Below are positions 27,349-61,245 of a stretch of DNA of 64,000 bases, piece by piece. Numbering within the stretch: position 1 is the first letter of the stretch; each line of letters starts with the position of its first letter. Under the pieces are notes generated by a model, which saw only the letters and a list, made by a program, of their open reading frames with translations, searched no databases and was not told the origin of the DNA. The position numbers were made by a program, and so were the translations under genes. Origin of the DNA: Alphaproteobacteria bacterium (GTDB taxonomy: Bacteria > Pseudomonadota > Alphaproteobacteria > JAAEOK01); assembly GCA_024244705.1 (NCBI GenBank), contig JAAEOK010000073.1:62001-126000 (forward strand), written 5' to 3'.

Positions 27349-28884
27349 CTATGCGGCGCCCTCGATATAGGCGGCCACGCGCGCGCCGAAGGCGCCGGCG
27401 GCGATCAGCGCGGCGACCGCTTCGAGGTCGGGCTGGAAGTAGCGGTCGCGGTCCCACATCGAGACCGCCTTGCGAATGGTGGCGTGGGCTTCCTCCAGGA
27501 CCGCGTTCGACCGCATCGGGCGGCGCAGATCGATGCCCTGGGCGGCGGCCAGCATTTCCACCGCCAGCACATATCGCGTGTTGTCGTTCATCTCGGTCAG
27601 GCGGCGGGCGGCGAAAGTCGCCATGCTGACATGGTCCTCCTGATTGGCCGAGGTCGGCAGGCTATCGACGCTGGCCGGATGGGCGAGCGACTTGTTCTCG
27701 CTGGCGAGCGCGGCCGCCGTGACCTGGGCGATCATGAAGCCGGAGTTCAATCCGGCATCCTCGACCAAGAAGGCGGGCAACTCGCTGAGGCTCGAATCGA
27801 TGAGCAGCGCCATCCGCCGTTCGGACAGAGCACCGATCTCGGCGATCGCCAGGGCCAAATTGTCGGCCGCCATCGCCACCGGTTCGGCATGAAAATTTCC
27901 AGCCGATAGAATCAGATCGCGGTCGGCGAAGACGAGCGGATTGTCGGACACCGCGTTGGCCTCGATTTCGAGGCCGGCGGCGACCCGGCGCATCTGGTCG
28001 AAACAGGCGCCCATGACCTGGGGCTGGCAGCGCAGCGAGTAGGGATCCTGGACGCGGTCGCAATCGGCATGCGACTTGTGGATCTCGCTGTCGCCGAGAA
28101 GCTCGCGGTAGATTCGGGCGGCCTCGATCTGGCCCTTCTGCCCACGGATGAGGTGGATCTCCGCATCGAACGGGACGCGGCTGCCGAGGGCGGCCTCGAC
28201 GGTCATGCTACCGGCAACGAAGGCGGCGTCCAGATTGCGCGTGGCATCGAACAAAGCCTTGAGCGCCAGCGCGGTCGAGACCTGGGTGCCGTTGATCAGC
28301 GCGAGGCCTTCCTTGGCCTCGAGGACGAGCGGCGACAATCCGGCCGCTTCCAGCGCCGGCCGGCTGTCCAACAGAGCGCCGTCGACGCGGACCCGGCCCT
28401 CGCCGATCAACGGCAGGGAGAGGTGGGCCAGCGGCGCGAGATCGCCCGAGGCGCCGACCGAGCCCTTGGCCGGCACCGCCGGATAAATGCCCCTCTCGAC
28501 CATCGCCATCAGCAGCGCGACGATTTCCGGGCGCATGCCGGAATAGCCACGGGCAAGCGAATTGACCTTGAGCACCATGATCAGACGGACAACGGCGTCA
28601 TCCAACAGCGGTCCCACTCCGGTCGCATGGGACAATAGGAGGTTGCGCTGCAATTCACGGAGCTGGCTGGTGTCGATCCGCGTCTTGGCGAGGCGGCCGA
28701 AACCGGTGTTGACGCCGTAGGCGACGCCGCCGCTCTCGATGACGCCGGTGACGATCGCCCGCGCTGCCCGGATCGCGTCCCAGGCGGTTTCGGCCAAATC
28801 GATCGCATGCGGGCCATCGTAGACTGCGCGAAGTTGGGCCAGGGTGAGGTCTCCGGGCGCGAGGTAAAGAGTGGGTTTCGCCAT
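27349..28884 (-). CDS. hutH: Histidine ammonia-lyase
   Basis: First step of histidine breakdown: histidine to urocanate and ammonia. The 511-residue protein has the MIO cofactor-forming Ala-Ser-Gly in '[14 protein letters not shown]', the upstream '[11 protein letters not shown]' with the catalytic Tyr, and '[26 protein letters not shown]'. It lies four bases after hutF on the minus strand, so the two are co-transcribed from the hutF-hutI divergent promoter. Confidence 0.97.
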
Positions 28885-28888
28885 GTCG

Positions 28889-30253
28889 TTATCCTGCCAA
28901 TTGATCGAGCGTCCGCCGAAAGCGGTCCGCTATCTTCGCTTCGTCGTGGTGGCATCCGTCACGGATGACCTGTTTGCCGCCGACAAAGACATCGCGCACC
29001 AAATTGCGATTGCCGGAAAATATCCAGCTGTCGAGCAGCGCATTGTCGGTGCGGCCATAGAGCAGCGGGTCGCCGCTATCGACGACGATCAAATCGGCGC
29101 GATAGCCGGAAGCGATGGCGCCGACCTTGCGGCCGCAGGCCTGTGCGCCGCCCGCTATGGCGCCGGTAAAGATCGTGGATCCGGTACTCCGACGCGGCCC
29201 TCCGGCGAGCACATTGCGGGCATGGAGAGCGAGCCGCTGGCCATATTCGAGCCATCGCAGCTCCTCGACCGGGCTGACCGAGATCTGGCTGTCGGAGCCG
29301 ATGCCAAAGCGACCGCCTGATTCCAAGAACGGGCGCGCGTTGAAAAAGCCGTCGCCGAGATTGGCTTCGGTGGTCGGGCAGAGGCCGGCGACGGCGCCGC
29401 TCTGCGCGAGACCCCTGGTCTCATCATCGGTCATGTGGGTGGCGTGGACCAGGCACCACCGCCGGTCGATCGCGAAATGATTGAGCAGCCAGTCGACCGG
29501 CCATTGTCCCGACCAGTCGAGACAATCGGCGACTTCCTTCTTCTGTTCGGCGATGTGGATATGGACCGGGCCGCTGCCGTCGGCGTCGAACCCGGCCAGG
29601 ACATCGTCGAGCAGCTCAGCGGTGATGGCGCGGAGCGAATGGAGCGCGATGCCGACCGCCGTATTCGCGTCGTCCGCGCTTGCCGCGCGCAGCCGCCTGA
29701 CAATGTCGAGGAACCGCGACGCGTCGTTGAGGAACCGCCGCTGACCGGGCTGCGCCGCCGCCGCGCCGAAACCGCCGTACTGATAGAGCACCGGAAGTGC
29801 GGTAAAGCCGATCCCCACCATGCGTGCCGCGCTCAACGTCCGCAGCGACATCTCCGCCACGTCGTCATAGGGCTCGCCGTCCGGACCGTGGTGCAAATAC
29901 TGGAACTCGGCGACGCTGGTATATCCGGATTTCAACATCTCGAGGTAGAGCTGGGCCGCGATCGCTTCGAGCTGATCGGGCGTGAGCCGTTCGAGCATGC
30001 CGTACATGACCTCGCGCCAGGTCCAAAAACTGTCGGCGCTGTCGCCCGAGCGCTCGGCCAGACCGGCCATCGCGCGCTGGTGGGCGTGGGAGTGAAGATT
30101 GGGGACGCCGGGCAGGGCCGCGCCGGCGATCCGTTCGCCGCCACTCGCGCCGGGCTGCACCGTCGCAATATCGCCGTCGTCGTCGAAGGTCACGGCGACA
30201 TCGTCAGCCCAGCCGTCGGGCAACAACGCGCGCGCGCAGAGGATCGTGGTCAC
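28889..30253 (-). CDS. hutF: Formimidoylglutamate deiminase
   Basis: Hydrolyses N-formimino-glutamate to N-formyl-glutamate and ammonia, the two-step branch of the histidine pathway that needs HutG afterwards. About 454 residues of the amidohydrolase superfamily, with the metal-binding HSHAHQRAM, 'HIAEQKKEV', '[11 protein letters not shown]' and '[25 protein letters not shown]'. A GTG at 30253 with GGGAGG a few bases before it is preferred over the GTG at 30265. No hutG is visible, so N-formylglutamate amidohydrolase must lie elsewhere. Confidence 0.95.
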
Positions 30254-30329
30254 ATTCCCTCCCACCCGGTGGCGGCCGGGCGGCCGCGACCGAAAGTCAG
30301 CAAAAGTGCGCCCTGTTTACACCTCATTA

Positions 30330-30343
30330 CATGTATAGACAAG
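30330..30343. promoter_or_regulatory. HutC operator candidate
   Basis: CATGTATAGACAAG, an imperfect palindrome (5 of 7 paired positions) of the TGTAT-ACA class bound by HutC. It lies in the AT-rich centre of the 155-base divergent hutF-hutI region. HutC releases such sites when urocanate binds, which would control both arms of the cluster together. Confidence 0.5.
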
Positions 30344-30408
30344 TCGGAACCAGTGCGCTATTCATTGAGCTTGCCCGATACCGCGCCAACCCGAACCCGA
30401 GATACCAC

Positions 30409-31644
30409 ATGACCGAAAGCTGGGACATTCTTTGGCTGAACGCGCGGGTCGCGACGATGAAAGCGGGCGCACCGGCCTACGGATTGATCGCGGATGGCGC
30501 CGTCGGGGTGTCGCGTGGCGCCATCGTTTGGGTCGGACCGGTCGCCGACGTCCCGGTCGAGCAGAGGCAGAACGCCCAGCACGTCATCGATTGCCGCGGC
30601 GACCTCGTGACCCCCGGCATGATCGACTGCCACACCCATCTCGTCTATGGCGGCAACCGGGCGCGCGAATTCGAAATGCGCCTGGAAGGCGCGACCTACG
30701 CTGACATCGCGCGCGCCGGCGGCGGCATCAATTCGACCGTCCGCGAGACCCGGGCCGCCGACGAAAACGCGCTCTTCGCCACCGCCCGGACCCGGTTGCA
30801 GCGGCTGATGGCGGAGGGTGTGACGACGATCGAGATAAAATCGGGCTATGGCCTCGACCGCCAGAACGAAATGAAGATGCTCGCCGTGGCCCGCCGCCTC
30901 GGCGAGCAAGCCAACGTGTCGGTCCACGCGACGTTCCTCGGCGCCCACGCCTTGCCGCCCGAGTTCGAGGACCGCGCCGACGCCTATATCGACCTCGTTT
31001 GTCAGGACATGCTGCCGGCCGTCGCCGAGGCCGACCTGGCCGATGCGGTCGACGCGTTCTGTGAAAACATCGCTTTTTCGACGGACCAGGTACGCCGGGT
31101 CTTCGAAGCGGCGACGGCGCTCGGCTTGCCGGTCAAGATCCATGCCGAGCAACTGAGCAACCAGGGCGGCGCCGAACTCGCCGCCAGCTTCGGCGCCCTC
31201 TCCGCCGATCACCTGGAATATCTCGACGAGACCGGCGCCCGCGCCATGGCCGAGGCGGCGACGGTGGCGGTCCTGCTGCCCGGCGCGTTCTATTTCCTCC
31301 GCGAGACTCAATTGCCGCCGATCGAGATGTTGCGCGATCAGGGTGTGCGCCTCGCGCTCGCCAGCGACAGCAACCCGGGCAGTTCGCCCGTGGTGTCGCT
31401 GCTGCTGATGCTCAACATGGGCTGCACCCTGTTCGGCATGACGCCGGAGGAAGCCCTCGCCGGCGTTACCCGCAACGCCGCGGCGGCGCTCGGCATCGAC
31501 GACCAGGTCGGCACCATCGAACGGGGCAAGCGGGCGGATTTGGTGTTGTGGCGCCTGCAGGATCCGGCCGAACTTGCCTACCGCATCGGCGACAATCCGG
31601 TCGCGGCGGTGGTGCGCGGCGGTGTCGAGGCGAGATTGTCGTGA
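30409..31644 (+). CDS. hutI: Imidazolonepropionase
   Basis: Third step of histidine breakdown: opens imidazolone propionate to formimino-glutamate. 411 residues of the amidohydrolase superfamily: metal ligands in '[15 protein letters not shown]', '[14 protein letters not shown]', '[13 protein letters not shown]', 'ADHLEYLDE' and '[10 protein letters not shown]'. The start is ATG at 30409; the frame upstream crosses the operator region and is not conserved. Its TGA overlaps the hutC GTG (GTGA). Confidence 0.97.
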
Positions 31645-32396
31645 AGGCCGCCCCGACCTCGATCGGCGCCTTGCCGCAAAACGCCGCGGCGCCGATATAT
31701 CAACGCCTCAAGGATACCGTCGTCGCCAAGATTCGCTCCGGCGAATGGGGGCCGGGCACCCGGGTACCGTCGGAAAACGCCCTGTCGGAGGACCTCGGGA
31801 TCAGCCGGATGACGGCGCATCGGGCGCTCCGGGAGCTGACCCAAGACGGCCATCTGACCCGCGTTCACGGCGTCGGCACGTTCGTCGCCGAGCAGCCGCT
31901 CCATGCCAGCTTGATCGAAGTCCAGGACATCGCCGACGAGATCGCCGCGCGCGGCCGGCGGCACAGCGCCGTCGTTCATCTGCAAAGAGAGGAACCGGCG
32001 AAGGGGGAGATCGCGGCGGCCATGGAAATCGCGCCGGGTTGCCCGGTCTTCCACGTCGCGCTGATCCACCATCAGGACGATATGCCGGTTCAGCTCGAAG
32101 ACCGTATCGTCAATCCGGAGGTCGGGCGGGATTTCCTGCACCAGGATTTCACCGCAATGACGCCGACACGGTTTCTGCTCGATCGCGTCCACCCGGACGA
32201 ACTCGAACATATCGTGCGCGCGATCATGCCCGATGCCGATGCCTGCGACCGTCTCGCCATCGGCCCCGATGAGCCGTGCCTGCGCCTGCGGCGCCGGACC
32301 TGGAGCGACGGCCACGTGGTGACTGCGGCGACCCTGCTTTATCCCGGCAGCCGCTACGACCTCGGCGCGCGCTATGCCGCCGACCGCTACAGATAG
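31641..32396 (+). CDS. hutC: Histidine utilisation repressor (GntR/HutC family)
   Basis: 251-residue regulator with an N-terminal GntR winged helix ('[19 protein letters not shown]', '[20 protein letters not shown]', '[10 protein letters not shown]') and a C-terminal UTRA effector domain ('VHLQREEP', '[15 protein letters not shown]'). The usual effector is urocanate. The start is the GTG at 31641 that overlaps the hutI stop, which ties repressor level to hutI translation. It lies inside the operon it should repress. Confidence 0.93.
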
Positions 32397-32425
32397 ATTA
32401 ATGGAATGACCCGAAGGAACCCGTC

Positions 32426-34111
32426 ATGACCGACACCCATGCCCCGTCGCGCTACGACAACAGCCGCATCATCCGGTCGCCCCACGGCACCGAACTGAGC
32501 TGCAAGAGCTGGCTCACCGAGGCCCCCTATCGGATGCTGCACAACAATCTCGATCCCGACGTCGCCGAGCGCCCCGAGGAATTGGTCGTCTATGGCGGTA
32601 TCGGCCGCGCGGCGCGCAATTGGGAGGCCTTCGACGCCTTGTGCCGGGCGCTCAAGGACCTCGAAGACGATCAGAGCCTGCTCGTCCAATCGGGCAAGCC
32701 GGTCGGTGTGTTCCGCACCCACAAGGACGCGCCGCGGGTGCTGATCGCCAATTCGAACCTGGTGCCGAAATGGGCGACCTGGGAACACTTCAATGAATTG
32801 GACCGCAAGGGACTGATGATGTACGGCCAGATGACCGCCGGGTCGTGGATCTATATCGGCAGCCAGGGCATCGTCCAGGGCACCTATGAGACCTTTGTCG
32901 AGCTGGCGCGCCAGCACTATGACGGCGATCCCAAGGGACGCTGGATTCTGACCGCCGGCCTCGGCGGCATGGGCGGCGCGCAGCCGCTGGCGGCGACCAT
33001 GGCTGGCTTCAGCATGATCGCGGTCGAATGCGATGAGACGCGGATCGATTTCCGCCTGCGCACCCGCTACATCGACACCAAGGCGACGACCATCGAGGAG
33101 GCGCTACAGATGATCGACGAGGCGCATGGGCGCGGCGCGGCGATCTCGGTCGGCCTGCTCGGCAACGCCGCCGAAATCCTGCCCGAGCTGGTGCGCCGCG
33201 GCGTCAAGCCGGACGTGGTTACCGACCAGACCTCGGCTCACGACCCGGTCAACGGCTACCTGCCGATCGGCTGGACCGTCGCCCAGTGGCGCGAAGAGGC
33301 CGAGACCCACCCCGACAAGGTCGCCCAGGCGGCCCGCGAATCGATGGCCGTGCATGTCCGCGCCATGCTCGATTTTCACCACCAGGGGATCCCGACCATC
33401 GACTACGGCAACAATATCCGCCAGGAAGCCAAGGACATGGGGGTCGAGAACGCCTTCGACTTCCCCGGCTTCGTGCCGGCCTGCATCCGCCCCCTGTTCT
33501 GCCGCGGCAAGGGGCCGTTCCGCTGGGTCGCATTGTCCGGCGATCCGGAGGACATCTATAAGACCGACGCCAAGGTCAAGGAGATGATCCCCGACGACCC
33601 GCACCTCCACACCTGGCTCGACATGGCGCGCGAGCGCATCGCCTTCCAGGGCCTGCCGGCGCGGATCTGCTGGGTCGGATTGGGCCAGCGCCACCGTCTC
33701 GGCCTCGCCTTCAACGAAATGGTGCGCAACGGCGAGCTCGCGGCGCCGGTGGTGATCGGCCGCGACCATCTCGATTCGGGCTCGGTCGCCAGCCCCAACC
33801 GCGAGACCGAAGCGATGCGCGACGGCTCCGACGCGGTCGCCGATTGGCCGCTTCTGAACGCCCTCTTGAACACCGCGGGCGGGGCGACCTGGGTGTCGAT
33901 CCATCATGGCGGCGGCGTCGGCATGGGCTATTCGATACACGCCGGCGTGGTCATCGTCTGCGACGGCAGCGAGGATGCCGACCGCCGCCTCGAACGCGTG
34001 TTGTGGAACGACCCGGCGACGGGGGTCATGCGCCACGCCGACGCCGGTTACGACATCGCCAAGGAGTGCGCCCGCGAGCAGGGGCTCGATTTGCCGGGTA
34101 TTGCCCTATAG
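32426..34111 (+). CDS. hutU: Urocanate hydratase
   Basis: Second step of histidine breakdown, urocanate to imidazolone propionate, using tightly bound NAD+ as an electrophile. 561 residues matching the family: '[25 protein letters not shown]', the NAD-binding '[14 protein letters not shown]', '[17 protein letters not shown]', '[15 protein letters not shown]' and '[17 protein letters not shown]'. A 29-base gap after hutC and an AAGGAA site upstream fit one rightward hutI-hutC-hutU operon. Confidence 0.98.
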
Positions 34112-43813: not shown

Positions 43814-44101
43814 ATGGAGGCGATCGTCTTGACCATCACACCGGTCGAACCAGAGCAGAGCATCGGCTGGATATTGTTGGCCTCCAACTACGACGAGGTC
43901 TACAGCGCGGCCGAAGTGGCCGAGTTCACCGAACTGATCATCGGCCAGGACATCCGTATCGTCGAATCCCAGCGACCCAAGAGCCTGCCCCTGGACTCGG
44001 ACGCCGAATTCCACTTGCGCTGTGACCGCACGTCGCTGCAGTACCGCAAATGGCTGGCGGATCTCGGTCTAACTTACGGCACGATCGCCGCCCATCACTG
44101 A
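43814..44101 (+). pseudogene. C-terminal remnant of a Rieske-type ring-hydroxylating oxygenase alpha subunit
   Basis: Only about 96 residues remain. The parts 'TPVEPEQSIGWILLASNYD', 'IIGQDIRIVESQRPKSLPLD', 'AEFHLRCDRTSLQYRKWLADLG' match the last helices of VanA-type/Rieske oxygenase alpha subunits, where the same 'QD..IVESQRP..LPLD....LR.DR.S..YR.WL' pattern recurs. The whole Rieske cluster domain (CxH...CxxH) and the iron-binding core are missing upstream, so it cannot be active. The stop overlaps the convergent DUF1116 stop by seven bases. A short start at 43814 would give a stray peptide. Confidence 0.65.
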
Positions 44102-45354
44102 TCGCCGTAGCGATCCGTCCAGGCAGCGCAGGCAGCCTCGAAACAGGCGATCGGCGCGCGCAGGATCCCGGCCCCGATCTGGCCGCCGTCCTTGCCCGCC
44201 AGGCCGCCGTCGATCATCGGCGTGATGCCGGTGTCGACGACCTTGAAGATGTCGATGCCGGTCGGCGTGCCACGATAGCCGAGAAACGGGATCTGGAAGC
44301 AGTCGTTTTCGCCGACGGTGATGTCGTACATCTGCAGATTGTTGGCGACCATAGCCTCGGCGGAGCCGCCCTGGTAGGCCTGGAGCGCAAAAGCCGCGGC
44401 CTGCGCGAACCCGCCAAGCCCGACGGTTTCGGCGATCAGGCTCTCGCCGCCGATCCACTCAATATCGTCCGCGCTGTAGCCGTCGAACAGCTTGGCCTCG
44501 ACCACCGCATGGGGGCCGTCGAACCAGCTTCCATCGAGGCCGCTGATGCGCAAGGCGAAGCCGCGGCAGCTGATCGTCATTGCGGTTACCACGCTCGACC
44601 CCTCGACGCCGTGGGCGGCATCGGCGATGGCCTTGGCGGCGGCCATCGACAGGCGCAGGAACGAATATTCGTTTTCGGTCAGGAATTCGTGGGTCTGCCG
44701 CACCCGCTCCGGCGCCGCGCCGTATTGCTCCATCAGAGAGGGCACAAGGGCGCGGGCGAAGAGCACGGTGGCAGCGGTGTTGCGGCTATGGAGCTCGTCG
44801 CCCATGTGGATGGCGCGCCGCATCATCGGTTTCAGGGGAACGCCGCCGGCGCACCGCACCGCTTCGCCGATCACCGGCGCGATCACCTCCTCGATCAATT
44901 TGAGGCCGTTGCGAACCTCATCGTCGTAGGCCCCGTAATTGAGCCGCCGCGGCGAGGCGCCCTCGTAGAAATTGCAGAATCCCTTGGTGCCGAAGACGGG
45001 ATCCTCGACCACGAAGACGGGCATCGATGCGGTATAGATCCCCGCCACGGAACCGACGCAGCCGTGGTCATGGCACGCGCCGACGCGGATCTCTCCGCTT
45101 TCGAACTTGGCCGCGGCGTCCTCATCGCTGTTGGCGAGACCTTCGTAGATAGCGCCATAAATCAGCGAACGCCGCTGGCCACCGAGATATTGCCGCCACG
45201 GCATCGGCCGGCCGCTGGTCAGCACCAGATTGGGCGTCATGTCCGGCACGACTTCGCCCGCCGGACGGACGTCGACCAGTACCGGATCGCATGCGTTCAT
45301 CCGGCGCAGGCTCTCGGCGTTGGCATCGTCTCGGCGTTGCGCCGCGTTCGCCAT
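44095..45354 (-). CDS. DUF1116 family protein (AllG/YlbE-like paralogue 1)
   Basis: 419 residues. It aligns along its length with the DUF1116 protein at 56.5-57.8 kb: 'DPVLVDVRPAGE', 'VFVVEDPVFGTKGFCNFYEG', 'GGVPLKPMMRRAIHMGDELHSRN' and 'GTPTGIDIFKVVDTGITPMIDGGLAGKDGGQIGAG'. In E. coli the family member AllG (YlbE) is one of three subunits of oxamate carbamoyltransferase. No FdrA or DUF2877 partner is adjacent to this copy; instead it sits 46 bases after a GlnT-like ligase. It may use the partners of the other cluster or have a separate job. Confidence 0.85.
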   Translation of the reverse strand: MANAAQRRDDANAESLRRMNACDPVLVDVRPAGEVVPDMTPNLVLTSGRPMPWRQYLGGQRRSLIYGAIYEGLANSDEDAAAKFESGEIRVGACHDHGCVGSVAGIYTASMPVFVVEDPVFGTKGFCNFYEGASPRRLNYGAYDDEVRNGLKLIEEVIAPVIGEAVRCAGGVPLKPMMRRAIHMGDELHSRNTAATVLFARALVPSLMEQYGAAPERVRQTHEFLTENEYSFLRLSMAAAKAIADAAHGVEGSSVVTAMTISCRGFALRISGLDGSWFDGPHAVVEAKLFDGYSADDIEWIGGESLIAETVGLGGFAQAAAFALQAYQGGSAEAMVANNLQMYDITVGENDCFQIPFLGYRGTPTGIDIFKVVDTGITPMIDGGLAGKDGGQIGAGILRAPIACFEAACAAWTDRYGDQ

Positions 45355-49062: not shown

Positions 49063-50259
49063 ATGCCGTATCGAAAAGTCTTAGGAGAATCACGGCGTCG
49101 CCTGATGTTGGCCGCCGCAAGTCTTGCATTGGGCGCATTCGTCGTCCACCCGGCCACTGCCGCCGACCCGGTCAAGATCGGACTCGTCGCCGCCTTGTCC
49201 GGGCCATCGGCGCAATCGGGCGAAGCGATCACCCGCGGCCTCACGGTCGCGATGGACGAGATCAATGGCGCCGGCGGAATCTTGGGCGGTCGCATGATCG
49301 AGCTGATCCGCCGCGACGACGAGTCCAATCCGCCCAAGGGCGTCATCGCCGCCCGCGAGCTGATCTTCAAGGAGAAGGTCGCGGCCTTCTTCGGCGGCAT
49401 CGATTCGCCGGTTTCGCTGGCCATCGTTCCGCTGGCCAATAAGTCGAAGGTGCCGTTCATGGGCGACTGGGCTGCCGCCACACCGATCACCCGCAATGGC
49501 GCCGACCCCAACTACGTCTTCCGCGTGTCGGCCGTCGACGCCATCGTCGACATCAAGCTCCTGCAATATGCCGACGCCACATTCGGCGCCAAGAAGGTCG
49601 GCCTCATGCTGATCAACAATCCGTGGGGCGAATCGAACGAGAAAGGCCTGAAGGCCGCCGATGCGAGCAACAACAGCGTCGAGATTGTCGGCGTCGAGAA
49701 GTTCGAGAACAACGACGTCGACATGGTGCCCCAACTGACCCGCCTCAAGGACGCGGGCGCCGAGGCGATCATTCTCGTCACCAATGCCCCGCCCGGCGCA
49801 CAAATGATGAAGTCGCGCGAGCGCATGGGCTGGAACGTACCGGTGGTCTCCCACTGGGGCATCTCGGGCGGTCGGTTCCCCGAGCTTGCCGGCCCGACCG
49901 CGGGCGATGCCCATTTCGTCCAGACCTACAGCTTTTACGGTGACCAGGGCGACACCGGCAAACGCGTGCTGCAGGCCTTGATCGACAAGTTTCCCGAGAT
50001 CAAGGGAGCGGACGATATTTTTTCGCCGGTCGGTACCGCGAACGCCTACGACGCCATGCACATCCTCGCCCGGGCGATCAACCAGGCCGGAAGCACGGAC
50101 GGCGATGCCATCCGCGAGGCGTTGGAAAACATGGATTCGTATGCCGGTCTGATCAAAGTGTACGACCCGCCGTTTTCCAAGGACAATCATGATGCGTTGA
50201 ACGAGAACGACTACATCATGGTTCGTTTCGAGGGCACCACGATCACGCCGGTCGAGTAG
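49063..50259 (+). CDS. ABC transporter substrate-binding protein, LivK/amide type
   Basis: 398-residue periplasmic binding protein of the type I (leucine/amide) fold. The signal peptide is RRRLMLAAASLALGAFVVHPATAA, then 'VKIGLVAALSGPSAQSGEAITRGLTVAMDEINGAGGILG' and 'PLANKSKVPFMGDWAAATPITRNG'. CAGGGAGAG precedes the ATG. The ligand could be a branched-chain amino acid, amide or ureide; its operon partners speak for an amide or ureide. It is the first gene of the long operon and sits directly across the TetR operator. Confidence 0.9.
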   Translation: MPYRKVLGESRRRLMLAAASLALGAFVVHPATAADPVKIGLVAALSGPSAQSGEAITRGLTVAMDEINGAGGILGGRMIELIRRDDESNPPKGVIAARELIFKEKVAAFFGGIDSPVSLAIVPLANKSKVPFMGDWAAATPITRNGADPNYVFRVSAVDAIVDIKLLQYADATFGAKKVGLMLINNPWGESNEKGLKAADASNNSVEIVGVEKFENNDVDMVPQLTRLKDAGAEAIILVTNAPPGAQMMKSRERMGWNVPVVSHWGISGGRFPELAGPTAGDAHFVQTYSFYGDQGDTGKRVLQALIDKFPEIKGADDIFSPVGTANAYDAMHILARAINQAGSTDGDAIREALENMDSYAGLIKVYDPPFSKDNHDALNENDYIMVRFEGTTITPVE

Positions 50260-50369: not shown

Positions 50370-51256
50370 GTGCGATCCCGAACGATGCTGATACCATCCG
50401 CCATCATCACTGGATTCGGCCTCGGCAGCATGTATGGGCTGCTGGCGCTCGGTTTCTACGTCACCTACGCGGTTTCCAACACGGTGAATTTCGCCCAGGG
50501 CAGCGCGATGATGCTCGGCGCCGTGCTGACCTTCAGCTTCGCCGTGACCTTCGGCTGGCCGATGTGGCTGGCCGTCATCTTCGCGCTCATCCTGTGCGCC
50601 ATGTGGGGCATTGTCGTCGAGCGGGTCGGCGTCCGCCCGTTCGTGAAGCGCGGCTCCGACGCTTGGTTGATGGCCACGGTCGCCATCGGCATTATCCTCG
50701 AGAACGTCGTCCTGTTTACCTTCGGCAAGGACCCGAGGGGCATGCCGCCGTCGCCGCTGACGACGGAATATTTTTACATCGCGGACCTCAAGGTACAGCC
50801 GCTGCAAGTCATGATCCCGGTGGTCGGTCTTGGCATCGCGGTCGCGCTTCACTTTTTCTCGCACCGGACCAAGCACGGCAAGGCACTGCTCGCGGTTGTA
50901 CAGAATCCGGATGCGGCGCGCCTCATGGGCATCAATGTCACCGCCGCCGTCATCACGACATTCGCGCTCTCCGGCCTGTTCGCGGGCATCGCCGGAGTCT
51001 TGATCGCGCCGCTGTTCATCATTTCTTCGACCATGGGCACGCTGTTCGGGATCAAGGCGTTCGCAGTGGCGATCCTGGGCGGCATCACCAACGCCTGGGG
51101 GGTCATGGTCGCCGGCCTCGTCTACGGCATGGTCGAGGCGTTGATCACCGCCGTGCTGGGTTCAACCTATACCCAGATCGTCACCTTCGCGCTGATCATT
51201 GTGGCGCTGGCGCTACGCCCCCATGGCCTGTTTGGCCGCGCCGCGGTGAAGAAGGT

Positions 51257-51260
<4 letters not shown>
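50370..51260 (+). CDS. ABC transporter permease, LivH type
   Basis: 296-residue inner membrane permease of the branched-chain amino acid/urea class, about eight helices: 'ITGFGLGSMYGLLALGFYVTYAVSNTVNFAQG' is the LivH N-terminal signature, and 'VVQNPDAARLMGINV' is the coupling loop. The listed GTG start is uncertain; ATG at 50385 gives MLIPSAIITG. The TGA overlaps the ATG of the next gene (ATGA). Confidence 0.9.
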
Positions 51261-53797
<2,537 letters not shown>

Positions 53798-53800
53798 GCC

Positions 53801-55030
53801 ATGGATCTAATCTTGCGAAACGCGCGGGTTGCCGTAGTCAATGACGGCAACCCCGTCGACATCGGCATCGATGGCGGCAGGATCGCCGTCATCGAGCCCC
53901 ACTTGATCGCCGAAGGCGAAGAGCTCGACGTTGGCGGTCGGTTGGTCGGCCCGGGGTTCATCGAGACCCACATCCATCTCGATAAGTCCTGCATCCTCGA
54001 ACGCTGCAAATCGGAAAAGGGACACCTCGACGAGGCAATCGAACAAGTCGCGCTCGCGAAAAAGGGCTTCACCGCCGAGGATTGCCACGACCGCGCCGTG
54101 CGTACGCTGGAAAAAAGCCTGCTCCACGGCACCACCCATATGCGGACCCATCTAGAGGTCGATCCGGTCGTCGGCCTGCGTAGTCTCGAGGGCCTAATGC
54201 CGCTGATCGATGAATACAAATGGGCGATCGACCTGGAGATCTGCGTCTTCCCCCAAGAGGGCCTGCTCAACAATCCGGGCACCGACGAGTTGATGGTCGA
54301 ATCGCTGAAGCGCGGCTGCCGCGTCGTCGGGGCCGCGCCCTATACCGACAGTGACCCCAGGGGGCAGATCGATCGTGTGTTCGAGATGGCGCGCGAGTTC
54401 GACGTCGACATCGACATGCATCTGGATTTCGGCCCCACTCATGACGAGCTGGACATCCCCTATGTCTGCGAGTTGACCGACAAGTTCGACTATGGCGGGC
54501 GGGTCGCGGTCGGCCATGTCACCAAGCTGTCGACGATGCCGCCGGAGAAGTTTCAACGGCTTCTGAAGCCGCTGGCCGATTCTGGCGTCGCCGTCACCGT
54601 GTTGCCGTCGACCGATCTTTTTCTCATGGGCCGGCACATGGATCACAACATCATGCGCGGCGTCGTCCCAGTCCACACCATGCTGGATTCGGGCGTCAAT
54701 TGCTCCCTGTCCTCGAACAACGTGCTGAACCCGTTCACCCCGTTCGGCGACTGCTCGCTGATCCGAATGGCCAATCTCTATGCGAATATCTGCCATGTCG
54801 GGAAACGCGATGATGTGCTCGAGTGCTTCAATATGGTGACCGAGCGTTCCGCCCGATTGATCCGCCTCGACGATTATGGCGTCGCGGTGGGCAATTCGGC
54901 CGACATGGTCGTCCACGACTGCACCGACGCGGCGACCGCGGTGGCCGAACTCATACCGCCGATCTACGGCTTCAAGCGGGGCCGGCGGACATTTACCCGC
55001 GAGCCGGCGGCACTGCACCGGCCCCATTGA
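53801..55030 (+). CDS. Amidohydrolase of the cytosine deaminase / AtzC class with altered active site
   Basis: 409 residues, full-length TIM-barrel amidohydrolase. The HxH motif is THIHLDKS near residue 56, with further His in 'DMHLDFG' and 'VAVGHVTKLS'. The C-terminal end 'RLDDYGVAVGNSADMVVHDC' matches E. coli CodA closely. Compared with CodA from memory, two catalytic acids are replaced: the Glu after HxD is Phe (HLDF), and the late 'DD.FDP' segment is 'NNVLNP', with every acid changed to Asn. So this is probably not an ordinary deaminase, and it may hydrolyse a different C-N bond or act as a binding protein. It follows livMGF by 3 bases. Confidence 0.82.
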   Translation: MDLILRNARVAVVNDGNPVDIGIDGGRIAVIEPHLIAEGEELDVGGRLVGPGFIETHIHLDKSCILERCKSEKGHLDEAIEQVALAKKGFTAEDCHDRAVRTLEKSLLHGTTHMRTHLEVDPVVGLRSLEGLMPLIDEYKWAIDLEICVFPQEGLLNNPGTDELMVESLKRGCRVVGAAPYTDSDPRGQIDRVFEMAREFDVDIDMHLDFGPTHDELDIPYVCELTDKFDYGGRVAVGHVTKLSTMPPEKFQRLLKPLADSGVAVTVLPSTDLFLMGRHMDHNIMRGVVPVHTMLDSGVNCSLSSNNVLNPFTPFGDCSLIRMANLYANICHVGKRDDVLECFNMVTERSARLIRLDDYGVAVGNSADMVVHDCTDAATAVAELIPPIYGFKRGRRTFTREPAALHRPH

Positions 55031-56251
55031 ATGGCGGTTGGGCTCGAGATCGCAGGCAGCCAAATGGACGATCCCCACGGCGCGTTCTGCCGCGGCACCG
55101 ATGTCGCCCTCGATGGCGCAGCGGAGGGCCCGCTCAAGGGTCTGCGATTCGGCGTCAAGGACATCATCGACATTGCCGGTCACCGAACCGGGTTCGGCAA
55201 TCCGACCTGGCTGCAGACCCATTCCGAAGCCACGCATACCGCCTCGGCGGTGCAGCGCCTGTTGGATGCCGGCGCCGATATGGTCGGCAAGACCCTGACC
55301 GACGAGATGGCCTACAGCCTGACCGGCGAGAACAAGCATTACGGCACGCCGCTCAACCCGGCGGCGCCGGACCGGATCCCCGGCGGTTCGTCCAACGGCT
55401 CGGCATCGGCGGTCGCGACGGAACTGGTCGACTTCGCGCTCGGCACCGATTGCGGCGGATCGGTCCGGCTGCCGGCGAGCTATTGCGGCATACTCGGCAT
55501 GCGCCCGACACTGGAACGGATCGCCACCGACGGGATTATCCCGTTCAGTGCCAGTTTCGACGTGGTCGGGTGGTTTGCGCGCGAGGGTGACCTGTTCGAC
55601 CGCGTCGGCCGCGTGCTGTTGGCCGAAAATGGGCCGGCACCGGCGCCTCGGCGCCTGCGGGTGGCCGAGGATGCCTTCTCTCTCGTCGATCCGGACGTGC
55701 GCGACGCGCTGGCACCCGCCGTCGAGCGGGTTGCCGCCACGATCGGCGCGGCCGATCGCATAACCGTCAGCGAGGACGGTTTGGCGCAATGGTTCGAGGT
55801 GTTTCGCGTCATCCAGGCGTCCGAGGTTTGGGCCAACCATGGCTCGTGGATCGAATCCGCCAAACCCGATTTGGGTCGCGGTGTTCGCGAGCGTATGGAA
55901 TGGGCCAGCAAGGTCGACCGCGACGTGGTGGCGCGGTGCCGGCGCGACCACGACCGTATTCGCGCCCGTCTCGCCGCTGTGCTGGAGGATGGCGACGTCA
56001 TCTGCATGCCGACCTCGCCGCGCGTCGCACCGCTCAAGAACACGCCGACCGACGATGTCGAGGTCCGGTTTCGCCACCACGCGATGTGCCTGTTGTGCGT
56101 CTCGGGGCTCGGCGGGCTGCCGCAGATCAGCCTCCCGCTGGCGCGCTTGGGAGGGCTTCCGCTGGGCCTGTCGATTATTGCCCGGCCCGGCGCCGATCTC
56201 ATGCTGCTCGGCCTGGCGAAGCAAATCATGGCCGGCGCGGGTGCGGCCTGA
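55031..56251 (+). CDS. Amidase-signature family hydrolase
   Basis: 406 residues of the amidase signature family with the complete Ser-cisSer-Lys triad: Lys in 'RFGVKDIIDIAG', cis-Ser in 'GGSSNGSASAVA', nucleophile Ser in 'GTDCGGSVRLPAS'. The short form resembles indole-acetamide-type (AMI1) amidases. Given the operon it may cleave an amide such as oxamate, or a ring-opened ureide; allophanate and biuret hydrolases belong to the same family, but their usual C-terminal extension is absent. The ATG follows the previous stop directly (TGAATG), so coupling is tight. Confidence 0.88.
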   Translation: MAVGLEIAGSQMDDPHGAFCRGTDVALDGAAEGPLKGLRFGVKDIIDIAGHRTGFGNPTWLQTHSEATHTASAVQRLLDAGADMVGKTLTDEMAYSLTGENKHYGTPLNPAAPDRIPGGSSNGSASAVATELVDFALGTDCGGSVRLPASYCGILGMRPTLERIATDGIIPFSASFDVVGWFAREGDLFDRVGRVLLAENGPAPAPRRLRVAEDAFSLVDPDVRDALAPAVERVAATIGAADRITVSEDGLAQWFEVFRVIQASEVWANHGSWIESAKPDLGRGVRERMEWASKVDRDVVARCRRDHDRIRARLAAVLEDGDVICMPTSPRVAPLKNTPTDDVEVRFRHHAMCLLCVSGLGGLPQISLPLARLGGLPLGLSIIARPGADLMLLGLAKQIMAGAGAA

Positions 56252-56337: not shown

Positions 56338-56529
56338 ATGAGCGACGCCGAGGGATCCAACAACATCGCGAGCCTGCTGCGTGACAAACCCCATGTCGTC
56401 AATGTGGGTCTGTCGTTTTTTGCGGATGATCTGAAAAACCAGGGCATTGCCGTGATCGATATCGACTGGTCGCCACCGGCCGGCGGCGACCCGGTGTTGG
56501 CCGACCTGCTGTCCAAGCTGGGCACCTGA
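56338..56529 (+). CDS. Stand-alone FdrA C-terminal domain protein
   Basis: 63 residues. The pattern 'IASLLRDKPHVVNVGLSFFADDL' and 'DIDWSPPAGGDPVLADLLSKL' matches the end of E. coli FdrA ('LLENVAVINIGLRSFAL', 'YQWSPVAGGNKKLARLLERL') as I recall it. The FdrA encoded 1.3 kb downstream lacks exactly this part. So the domain is supplied in trans, by a gene placed before DUF1116. The start is taken at 56338 (MSDAEG); an ATG at 56308 adds ten unsupported residues. Too short to have obvious function alone. Confidence 0.78.
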   Translation: MSDAEGSNNIASLLRDKPHVVNVGLSFFADDLKNQGIAVIDIDWSPPAGGDPVLADLLSKLGT

Positions 56530-56546: not shown

Positions 56547-57797
56547 TTGGAGAAGATCGAACAAGCCAATCAGGAGGCGGTCCGCCGCATGCTGGCGGCC
56601 GATCCGGTCCTGGTCGACGTGGTTCCGGCACGCGAAGCGATCCCGACCTTAGGCGATCACATGATCCTCCATGCCGGCCCGCCCATCGAATGGGACCGGA
56701 TGTGCGGCCCGATGCGCGGTGCGGTGACCGGGATCGCCGTCTTCGAGGGCTGGGCCGACGAACTCGAGACGGCCGCGTCAATGGCGGCGGCCGGAGATTT
56801 CGCGTTCCACCCCAACCACGATTTCGATGCCGTCGGCCCGATGACCGGCATGACGACTCTGAACCAGCCGGTCATGGTGGTCGAGAACCGGGCCTTCGGC
56901 AATCGCGCCTACTGCACGATCAACGAGGGGCTGGGCAAGGTCATGCGGTTCGGCGGCAACGACGACGAGGTCCTGAACCGCCTGCGCTGGCTGCGGGACG
57001 TGCTCGGCCCGGCGTTGAAGGCGGCGATCCTCGATTGCGGCGGTATTCCGCTCAAGAACATCGTCGCCCGCGGCTTGGCCATGGGCGATGAGATGCACCA
57101 GCGCAACGTCGCCTGTTCCGGGCTCACGCTGCGCGAATTGGCGCCACCGCTGGCCCGTACGCTGCGTGACGGCGACAAGCTGGCAGAGACCCTCGCCTTC
57201 ATCGGTGGCAACGACCAGTTCTTTCTCAATATCGCGATGGCCATGGGCAAGGCGATCACGGATCCGGTCCGCGATATCGACGGATCGAGTGTCGTCACCG
57301 CGATGTGCCGCAACGGAACCGATTTCGGCATCCGCGTCAGCGGCACCGGCGATAGTTGGTTCACGGCCCCGGTCGAGATGCCGGAAGGGCTGTATTTTCC
57401 GGGCTTTACGGAAGCCGATGCCAACCCCGACATGGGCGATTCGACAATTGTCGAGACCATGGGACTCGGCGGTTTCGCGATGGGTGCGTCACCGGCAGTG
57501 GCGGGGTTCGTCGGCGCCGGCGCGGCCTCGGACGCGGCCAACTTTACCCGAAACATGTCGGAGATCACGGTCGCCGAAAACCCGGAATGGACAATCCCGG
57601 CCATGGACTATGCGGGCGTGCCGACCGGCATCGATATTCGCCTGGTCGTCGATACCGACATGGCGCCGACGATCAATACCGGGATCGCCCACAAGGACGC
57701 CGGCGTCGGTCAGGTCGGCGCCGGCGTGGTCCGCGCGCCAATGGCCTGCTTCAAGCAGGCACTGGTCGCGCTGGCGGATCGGCTGGGTGTCGCATGA
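56547..57797 (+). CDS. DUF1116 family protein (AllG-like carbamoyltransferase subunit)
   Basis: 416 residues, close in length to E. coli AllG (YlbE). It has 'DPVLVDVVPAREAIP', 'VMVVENRAFGNRAYCTINEG', 'CGGIPLKNIVARGLAMGDEMHQRN' and 'AGVPTGIDIRLVVDTDMAPTINTGIAHKDAG'. With FdrA and DUF2877 it should form the ATP-independent carbamoyl-transfer complex known as oxamate carbamoyltransferase. The start is TTG at 56547; GAGGAAGG lies 14 bases before, a wide but usable spacing. The stop overlaps the fdrA ATG (ATGA). Confidence 0.88.
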   Translation: MEKIEQANQEAVRRMLAADPVLVDVVPAREAIPTLGDHMILHAGPPIEWDRMCGPMRGAVTGIAVFEGWADELETAASMAAAGDFAFHPNHDFDAVGPMTGMTTLNQPVMVVENRAFGNRAYCTINEGLGKVMRFGGNDDEVLNRLRWLRDVLGPALKAAILDCGGIPLKNIVARGLAMGDEMHQRNVACSGLTLRELAPPLARTLRDGDKLAETLAFIGGNDQFFLNIAMAMGKAITDPVRDIDGSSVVTAMCRNGTDFGIRVSGTGDSWFTAPVEMPEGLYFPGFTEADANPDMGDSTIVETMGLGGFAMGASPAVAGFVGAGAASDAANFTRNMSEITVAENPEWTIPAMDYAGVPTGIDIRLVVDTDMAPTINTGIAHKDAGVGQVGAGVVRAPMACFKQALVALADRLGVA

Positions 57798-60285: not shown

Positions 60286-61245
60286 GTGTCCCATCACTTC
60301 CGACTGCTGAGTTGCGGCACCATCGGCGGACGTGTCCTGCGCGCCGGCACGACCGGCACCGTCGCCGCCGTCTTTTCCAGCAGTTTCTATCTCGAATCGG
60401 AGGGAAGGTTCGTCTGTATCGGCACCGAGACGCTCGGCCTCGGCCCCCTCAATGCGATCTGCGACGCACCCGGCAAGACGGATTGGCTGGCCAGCGGGCT
60501 CCGCGACGGAACCCCGTTCATCGCGATCGACCGGAGCGTTCGTATCCGCGGCAGCTTCGCCTTCGAGACCGCTGCCATGGAAAGCTGGCATCCGCGACCC
60601 TATCCCGAGGCGCCCCACCCCGCCGACCTGAGGCGGAATTTGCAGGAATTGCGGCGCGTCATGGCCGCCCGCCTGCCCGACCAAGGCCTCGCGCATTGCG
60701 TCCTCGGCGGCCAAAACCGCCGCCCGACGACACCCTTGGCGAAGGCTGCCCGCGGCCCCATCGAAGAGCTTCGGACTTGGCTCGAAATGGCACTCGCGAG
60801 AAGTCCCAATCATGACCCTTACCCGCCGCCGGCGATGGACGCCTTGGCCGGGCTCGGGCCCGGATTGACGCCCTCGGGTGACGATTTCCTCGGCGGGACG
60901 ATATTGGCTCTCGATGCGGTCGGCGCGGACGCAGCCCGGACTCGCCTGGCAGCCAGTGCCTGTGACGACGTGCACCGGGCCGGCAACCGGATCAGCACCG
61001 CCCACGTGAGGGCAGCCGCCGAAGGCTATGGCAGCGCCGCCATTCACGAATTACTGGGGGAACTCCGGGCCGGCCGTACGGTTACCTATCCCGAACGCCT
61101 CGACGCCATCGACCGCATCGGCCATTGCTCGGGCTGGGATACCTTGTGCGGAGTCATCACCGCGTTGGACGCCGTTGTCGCCGTCTCGGAGCGCGACGGG
61201 ATTCCGGCGCGCCCCGCCAGCACCCCGCCAATAGTCAGGCCCTGA
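60286..61245 (+). CDS. DUF2877 family protein (AllH-like carbamoyltransferase subunit)
   Basis: 319 residues. The family signature 'LAGLGPGLTPSGDDFLGG' sits near residue 190, with an N-terminal beta-rich half and 'RISTAHVRAAAEG' after it. E. coli AllH (YlbF) is the third subunit of oxamate carbamoyltransferase, and its presence completes the set AllF-AllG-AllH here. The start is GTG at 60286, 7 bases after the kinase stop, with AGAAGG upstream. It ends 11 bases into the convergent GcvT pseudogene. Confidence 0.87.
   Translation: MSHHFRLLSCGTIGGRVLRAGTTGTVAAVFSSSFYLESEGRFVCIGTETLGLGPLNAICDAPGKTDWLASGLRDGTPFIAIDRSVRIRGSFAFETAAMESWHPRPYPEAPHPADLRRNLQELRRVMAARLPDQGLAHCVLGGQNRRPTTPLAKAARGPIEELRTWLEMALARSPNHDPYPPPAMDALAGLGPGLTPSGDDFLGGTILALDAVGADAARTRLAASACDDVHRAGNRISTAHVRAAAEGYGSAAIHELLGELRAGRTVTYPERLDAIDRIGHCSGWDTLCGVITALDAVVAVSERDGIPARPASTPPIVRP

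Follow-up and report, generated by a model that had tools for sequence, protein, structure and literature searches.

A CodA/AtzC-type amidohydrolase clade with asparagine at the strand-8 aspartate position and a possible role in cyclic ureide catabolism

The window, a 64,000-nucleotide stretch of an alphaproteobacterial contig, encodes a cytosine-deaminase-like protein that keeps the histidines of its barrel but lacks the usual catalytic acids, which raises the question of whether such a protein is still an enzyme and, if so, what it acts on. A sequence-only reading had described the gene as intact and tightly coupled, and this holds: it is a complete open reading frame at 53801-55030 on the forward strand (409 amino acids, ATG to TGA) without stop or frameshift, which starts 3 bp after the end of livF and whose stop codon is directly followed by the ATG of an amidase gene.

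Fold and active-site columns

The closest solved relative was E. coli CodA (phmmer E 9e-52; 29% identity; 252 bits with a profile built from 49 relatives), with AtzC second. An AlphaFold2 model predicted on the family alignment (mean pLDDT 94.5, pTM 0.93) was matched by Foldseek to CodA with phosphonocytosine (3o7u; TM 0.93, rmsd 2.0), followed by 5-methylcytosine deaminase and AtzC. The (beta/alpha)8 barrel of subtype III amidohydrolases (CodA and GuaD clusters), with its strand-1 HxH and the His of strands 5 and 6, is present, and the protein is a member of the CodA/AtzC group by fold and sequence. The strand-8 catalytic Asp of that subtype is replaced by N306 in 98/98 relatives, and the Glu that protonates the substrate ring nitrogen is likewise missing, position 210 being F, S, L, V, M or I. 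Scores fell below the cut-off of every NCBIfam subfamily given here, both for the cytosine deaminase models NF006685 (191 bits, cut-off 483), NF005748 (197, cut-off 438) and NF005759 (180, cut-off 403) and for the best-scoring model, NF004636 of the PRK05985 amidohydrolase subfamily (240 bits, cut-off 408). The gene and its predicted active-site segments are as follows.

53801..55030, forward: CodA/AtzC-type amidohydrolase with beta-8 Asp to Asn (N306), Glu217 to Phe (F210) and beta-7 Asn to Asp (D272); from ORF, alignment, fold and conservation
53969..53986, forward: HIHLDK, with predicted metal ligands H57 and H59, and K62 (AtzC K65); from alignment, invariant in 98/98
54419..54430, forward: HLDF, with predicted metal ligand H207, and F210 where CodA has its catalytic Glu217; from alignment and conservation
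54515..54517, forward: codon of H239 (CodA H246, AtzC H249), the likely base; from alignment, AtzC H249A being without detectable activity
54611..54616, forward: T271-D272, clade-specific acid, Val278-Asn279 in CodA; present in 98/98 clade members, with Asn in 43/52 of the outgroup
54716..54730, forward: NNVLN, with N306, N307 and N310 at CodA D313, D314 and D317; 98/98 in the clade

Columns were assigned against CodA from MG1655 and AtzC from its plasmid record, a comparison that the sequence-only reading had suggested. Its statement that the histidine ligands of the barrel are retained was borne out: H57, H59, H207 and H239 are all present, and CodA H61, H63, Q156, H214 and H246 align with H57, H59, Q152, H207 and H239, while AtzC K65 aligns with K62. 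It had also read the HLDF segment as lacking the catalytic Glu of CodA, and E217 indeed aligns with F210. The three Asp-to-Asn changes that it had listed were found at all three columns, CodA D313, D314 and D317 corresponding to N306, N307 and N310, where D313 is the beta-8 metal and base Asp. The changes at D313 and D317, like that at E217, are striking; that at D314 is ordinary, as Asn occupies this column in 10/52 outgroup proteins, including AtzC. The segment is 14 residues long in both proteins (GINVCFGHDDVFDP versus GVNCSLSSNNVLNP), and given these equal lengths and an alignment with no gap there, a shift of the acids by one residue was rejected.

The acids are thus absent from their columns, and the shift to neighbouring residues that would have spoken against the earlier claim did not, strictly, take place; yet an invariant acid that the claim had missed, D272, stands on the neighbouring beta-7 loop where CodA has Asn279, and is a possible compensating acid. 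Part of the change may therefore be a relocation, and aligned sequences make Asp and Asn appear to have been exchanged between two active-site loops. In the AlphaFold2 model D272 lies just after strand 7, and the adjacent T271 aligns with CodA Val278, which is among the differing active-site residues listed for AtzC (PMC4577212); from these two observations we infer that D272 may be near the pocket.

Conservation among relatives

A contig scan gave 61 loci with relatives at 53-81% identity, and genome searches at class and phylum level added further relatives down to 37% identity. The combined alignment compared 98 proteins carrying Asn at 306 and 307 (hereafter NN proteins; 37-81% identity) with 52 outgroup proteins. 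Since N306 and N307 defined the NN set, those two columns are 98/98 by construction and the other columns are independent; in the 61 loci, which were found by similarity alone, N306, N307 and N310 were invariant in all intact genes. Also conserved in 98/98 NN proteins were N310, D272, T271, R68, G238, T313 and N325, as well as H57, H59, H207, H239, Gln152 and Lys62. Position 210 was F in 75/98 and otherwise S, L, V, M or I, with Glu or Asp in 0/98, such that the conserved trait is, from the alignment, the absence of an acid and not Phe; of the residues whose conservation within the clade the earlier reading had proposed to examine, Asn was therefore invariant and Phe was not. Outgroup proteins had Asp at 306 (51/52) and at 310 (51/52), Glu or Asp at 210 (49/52) and Asn at 272 (43/52), whereas position 307 was non-diagnostic (Cys 25, Asp 10, Asn 10 including AtzC, Ser 6).

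These patterns agree with the earlier view of a coordinated change, seen in 98/98 relatives, and the clade does not retain the acids in any of its 98 members. Decay or an assembly error in this particular genome has almost no chance of being the explanation, because the same residues recur in relatives whose assemblies are many and unrelated, isolate genomes among them; nothing was found in its favour. The 98/98 conservation also led to the rejection of random decay or sequencing error, and among the 61 loci only L044 is frameshifted and L035 has a single stop.

In the tree, the main NN group (59/61 sampled rows) formed a supported clade (SH-aLRT 99), and a distant pair, L142 and L143, fell outside it with weak support (35). 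The signature may have arisen once, though the separate, weakly supported placement of that pair leaves this unproven. An NN protein was present in 18/289 sampled genomes of the window's class, and cultured carriers of the gene include Xanthobacter tagetidis and Ancylobacter vacuolatus. We also observed a protein on Arthrobacter plasmid pNicSoilB8 (L122, 8947-10332) that has Phe at the Glu217 column and still has Asp on strand 8; its gene lies beside those for a PLP aldolase and a dihydropyrimidinase, and the protein is a possible evolutionary intermediate. Searches of open-licence literature found no description of such a clade, and a search for the beta-8 Asp-to-Asn change in the superfamily gave no relevant match.

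Operon and gene neighbourhoods

The amidohydrolase gene lies between transporter genes and a set of oxamate carbamoyltransferase and carbamate kinase genes, as listed below.

49063..50259, forward: periplasmic binding protein of a branched-chain-amino-acid/urea-type ABC transporter; profile matches
50370..51260, forward: livH-type permease; ORF and similarity to homologous loci
51257..53797, forward: livM, livG and livF parts in one reading frame, no internal stop; ORF and similarity to homologous loci
55031..56251, forward: amidase-signature hydrolase (NF006169), abutting the amidohydrolase gene; profile matches
56338..56529, forward: 63-aa ORF, a separate C-terminal domain of FdrA/AllF; NF004760 positions 500-554 of 555
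56547..57797, forward: allG, oxamate carbamoyltransferase subunit; PF06545
57794..59296, forward: allF/fdrA, ending 60 residues short of the family model; NF004760
59310..60278, forward: allK, carbamate kinase; NF009007 above cut-off, TIGR00746 just below
60286..61245, forward: allH, oxamate carbamoyltransferase subunit; PF11392

allF, allG, allH and allK thus occur together, with PF06545, PF11392, NF004760 and NF009007 all above cut-off. The amidase is similar to malonamidase E2 and to hydrolases of allophanate or biuret, and has the GGSSNGS serine motif. Profile searches of the operon found neither a cytosine transporter nor a pyrimidine gene. A stretch similar to the detached FdrA domain also lies upstream of allG in L012, and in L157 the last FdrA domain is in the AllG frame or next to AllG; long livM-livG-livF-like frames were also seen in L016 and L062.

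Elsewhere in the window, another AllG paralogue, 41% to the first, is encoded at 44095-45354 on the reverse strand. Its divergent cluster also includes a glutamine-synthetase-like gene and genes for a TetR regulator and an enolase like cis-3-hydroxy-L-proline dehydratase (605 bits, above cut-off), while neither allF nor allH was seen next to it; a third AllG copy is on contig C53 of the same genome. A histidine-utilisation set occupies 27349-34111 (hutH and hutF reverse; hutI, a GntR-like regulator and hutU forward). These hut genes, 15-22 kb upstream, were considered as a source of hydantoin, which neighbours in other genomes did not support.

Across other genomes, the common thread of the neighbourhoods is the disposal of ureido groups. 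AllFGHK genes were linked to the amidohydrolase gene in the window, L012, L052, L054 and L062, as were AllG/AllH in L157. The gene directly followed urease ureAB-ureC in eight alphaproteobacterial loci (L025, L030, L031, L033, L037, L039, L040 and L041), with the ureC stop overlapping its start in L025. Carbamoylase, hydantoin racemase and dihydropyrimidinase genes were its neighbours in 5 loci, and hyuA/hyuB in other lineages. An amidase lay nearby in 22 loci, and many NN members have no adjacent amidase. A gamma-glutamyltransferase-like gene was adjacent in L018, L157, L158 and L153. The best match of this gene in L018 and L157 was chain 5hft, named gamma-glutamyltranspeptidase, which we take to be HpxW, the oxamate hydrolase of Klebsiella; the L158 and L153 homologues have 58% and 41% identity to the L018 gene, another contig of the genome to which the window belongs carries an HpxW-like gene (57% identity to that of L018), and the neighbouring gene of this kind in L152 is more generic. 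Neighbourhoods varied in the more distant members, so several substrates are possible.

Co-occurrence was assessed across the 289 genomes, 18 of them with an NN protein, using Fisher tests that ignore relatedness among genomes. With relatedness ignored, NN proteins co-occurred with HpxW-like genes in 7/18 genomes (1.4 expected, p = 1.4e-4) and with the amidase in 11/18 (2.6 expected, p = 2e-6), and HpxW-like genes co-occurred with AllG in 8 (1.8 expected, p = 7e-5). Co-occurrence of NN proteins with AllG was not significant across the 289 genomes (3 versus 1.4 expected, p = 0.15), and the AllG link is therefore founded on genes lying together in a few lineages.

Two further observations concern these neighbourhoods. 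On a Rhizobium leguminosarum plasmid (L120, 3897-10227), a flavin oxidoreductase, a questin-oxidase-like protein, a PRK05985 amidohydrolase, an 8-oxoguanine deaminase and the NN amidohydrolase are encoded in a row that is possibly an oxidised-purine catabolic cluster. A protein of about 145-155 aa, often divergently encoded, recurs near the amidohydrolase (L065, L154, L155, L057, L062 and L157); it looks SnoaL/NTF2-like, and the L065 copy had no NCBIfam match.

Catalytic capacity, proposed reaction and known systems

According to a 2025 study, the highly conserved machinery of these enzymes consists of Asp, His and Glu, and in the CodA cluster Asp deprotonates water, His shuttles protons and Glu protonates ring N3 (PMC12828455). 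In AtzC, assayed on ammelide and not on a ureide, kcat was 26.2 s-1 for the wild type, 35.8 s-1 for D303A, 90.4 s-1 for D303N and 16.8 s-1 for H219A, and H249A had no detectable activity (PMC4577212). AtzC D303 is at the position of N306, and H249 corresponds to H239, which is invariant in the clade. Because the D303 mutants were active and H249 was indispensable, the missing acids do not prove the enzyme dead; equally, they do not prove it live. On balance, an active metal hydrolase of altered chemistry is likely.

Of the two outcomes that the sequence-only reading had offered, a new reaction is plausible and favoured, and a non-catalytic role is not, given the invariant His, Gln and Lys and the activity of AtzC with the same Asp-to-Asn or Asp-to-Ala change. 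That the protein is a pseudoenzyme, for instance a scaffold or regulatory subunit of the coupled amidase, would suit the loss of both carboxylates of the classical Asp-His-Glu machinery and the stop codon that abuts the amidase start; we consider it improbable, as none of the 98 proteins varies in the metal and shuttle histidines, Gln152 or Lys62, many members lack an amidase next door and the Asp is dispensable in AtzC (PMC4577212). More improbable still is an ordinary cytosine-like deaminase in which Asn306 and Asp272 merely replace the usual acids: CodA is the closest solved structure, but position 210 is never Glu or Asp, the operon has no cytosine transporter or pyrimidine gene, and the two best cytosine deaminase scores are far below their cut-offs. 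A stronger contender, though on the whole unlikely, is an active metal hydrolase of the same design that, as in AtzC, removes ammonia or another exocyclic substituent from an acylguanidine, aminohydantoin or triazine-like ring without opening it. K65, Q160 and N304 of AtzC are shared (K62, Q152 and N307), AtzC is among the closest structures, and a gene for an 8-oxoguanine deaminase (620 bits, above cut-off) precedes the NN gene in Rhizobium. Most neighbours, however, act on ureido or carbamoyl groups; this is in keeping with a ureide product, though still compatible with a prior deamination.

We therefore prefer, as a tentative proposal that falls a little short of probable, an active mononuclear-metal amidohydrolase with rebuilt acid/base machinery that opens a cyclic ureide ring to give oxalurate in the window operon. 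This draws on the sequence changes, their conservation, the predicted fold and the operon, and on published work on AtzC mutants and AllFGH/AllK. In the geometry we predict, three histidines (H57, H59 and H207) would hold the metal, probably together with the N306 amide oxygen; H239 would form the metal hydroxide, like H249 in AtzC, and serve as proton shuttle; Q152, K62, N307 and the T271-D272 pair may bind and polarise the substrate, with D272 putatively supplying the negative charge lost from the beta-8 loop. Since Glu217 is absent, protonation of an aromatic ring nitrogen is unlikely, and the substrate is thus probably a non-aromatic ureide or imide ring and not a pyrimidine. The transporter would import the compound, the amidohydrolase would open it to a ureido acid, AllFGH would phosphorolyse this to oxamate and carbamoyl phosphate, AllK would then yield ATP, and the last ammonia may be freed by the amidase in the window or, at other loci, by an HpxW-like hydrolase.

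The simplest inferred source of oxalurate is a parabanate-like ring; parabanate itself is a less likely substrate than a cyclic ureide in general. At alkaline pH parabanate opens on its own, which may make an enzyme unnecessary. No parabanate hydrolase was found in the open-licence literature, and the literature search gave no usable match for thiohydantoin desulfhydrase (ergothioneine catabolism) as a known homologue. The title of a 1965 paper names parabanic acid as an inducer of oxamate transcarbamylase (Tigier and Grisolia). A broader claim, which we regard as possible if doubtful, is that NN proteins are an unrecognised amidohydrolase branch that works without the Glu and without the beta-8 Asp, a residue supposed to be essential, with an Asn metal ligand paired with a beta-7 Asp, and catalyse a reaction that has no assigned gene, such as opening of parabanate or an oxidised-purine ureide towards oxalurate catabolism.

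A sizeable clade that lacks both carboxylates, keeps the rest and gained an acid next door is a natural test of the purpose of those residues. The NN amidohydrolase could be the missing first step of oxalurate/oxamate operons without allantoin genes, and the clade is a caution against automatic annotation as cytosine deaminase.

Compared with CodA (PDB 1k6w, 3o7u), the protein shares the fold (TM 0.93), the metal histidines, H246 and Q156, and differs in E217 to F, D313 to N, D317 to N and N279 to D and in its gene neighbourhood; of the Asp-His-Glu set of the CodA cluster, the NN clade retains only His. With AtzC (PDB 2qt3, 4cqb) it shares the fold (TM 0.86-0.88), the equivalents of Lys65, Gln160, Asn304 and His249 and the lack of Glu at the CodA Glu217 column, whereas in AtzC Asp303 of beta-8 is retained and the stretch of beta-7 loop bearing D272 is missing. 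The AtzC pocket (beta-8 Asp ligand, His219, Asn304 and Lys65) is accordingly matched in part, Lys and Asn being present and N306 and D209 standing in place of Asp and His219. A true member of the NF004636/PRK05985 subfamily (480 bits) is encoded beside the homologue in Rhizobium (L120). In E. coli, AllFGH is the oxamate carbamoyltransferase and AllK the carbamate kinase (PMC11326118), and the window operon shares AllG, AllF, AllK and AllH with this allantoin oxamate branch; E. coli, in contrast, derives oxalurate from allantoin via AllE, AllC and AllD, none of whose genes was seen in the operon, and has no amidohydrolase of the NN kind in the pathway.
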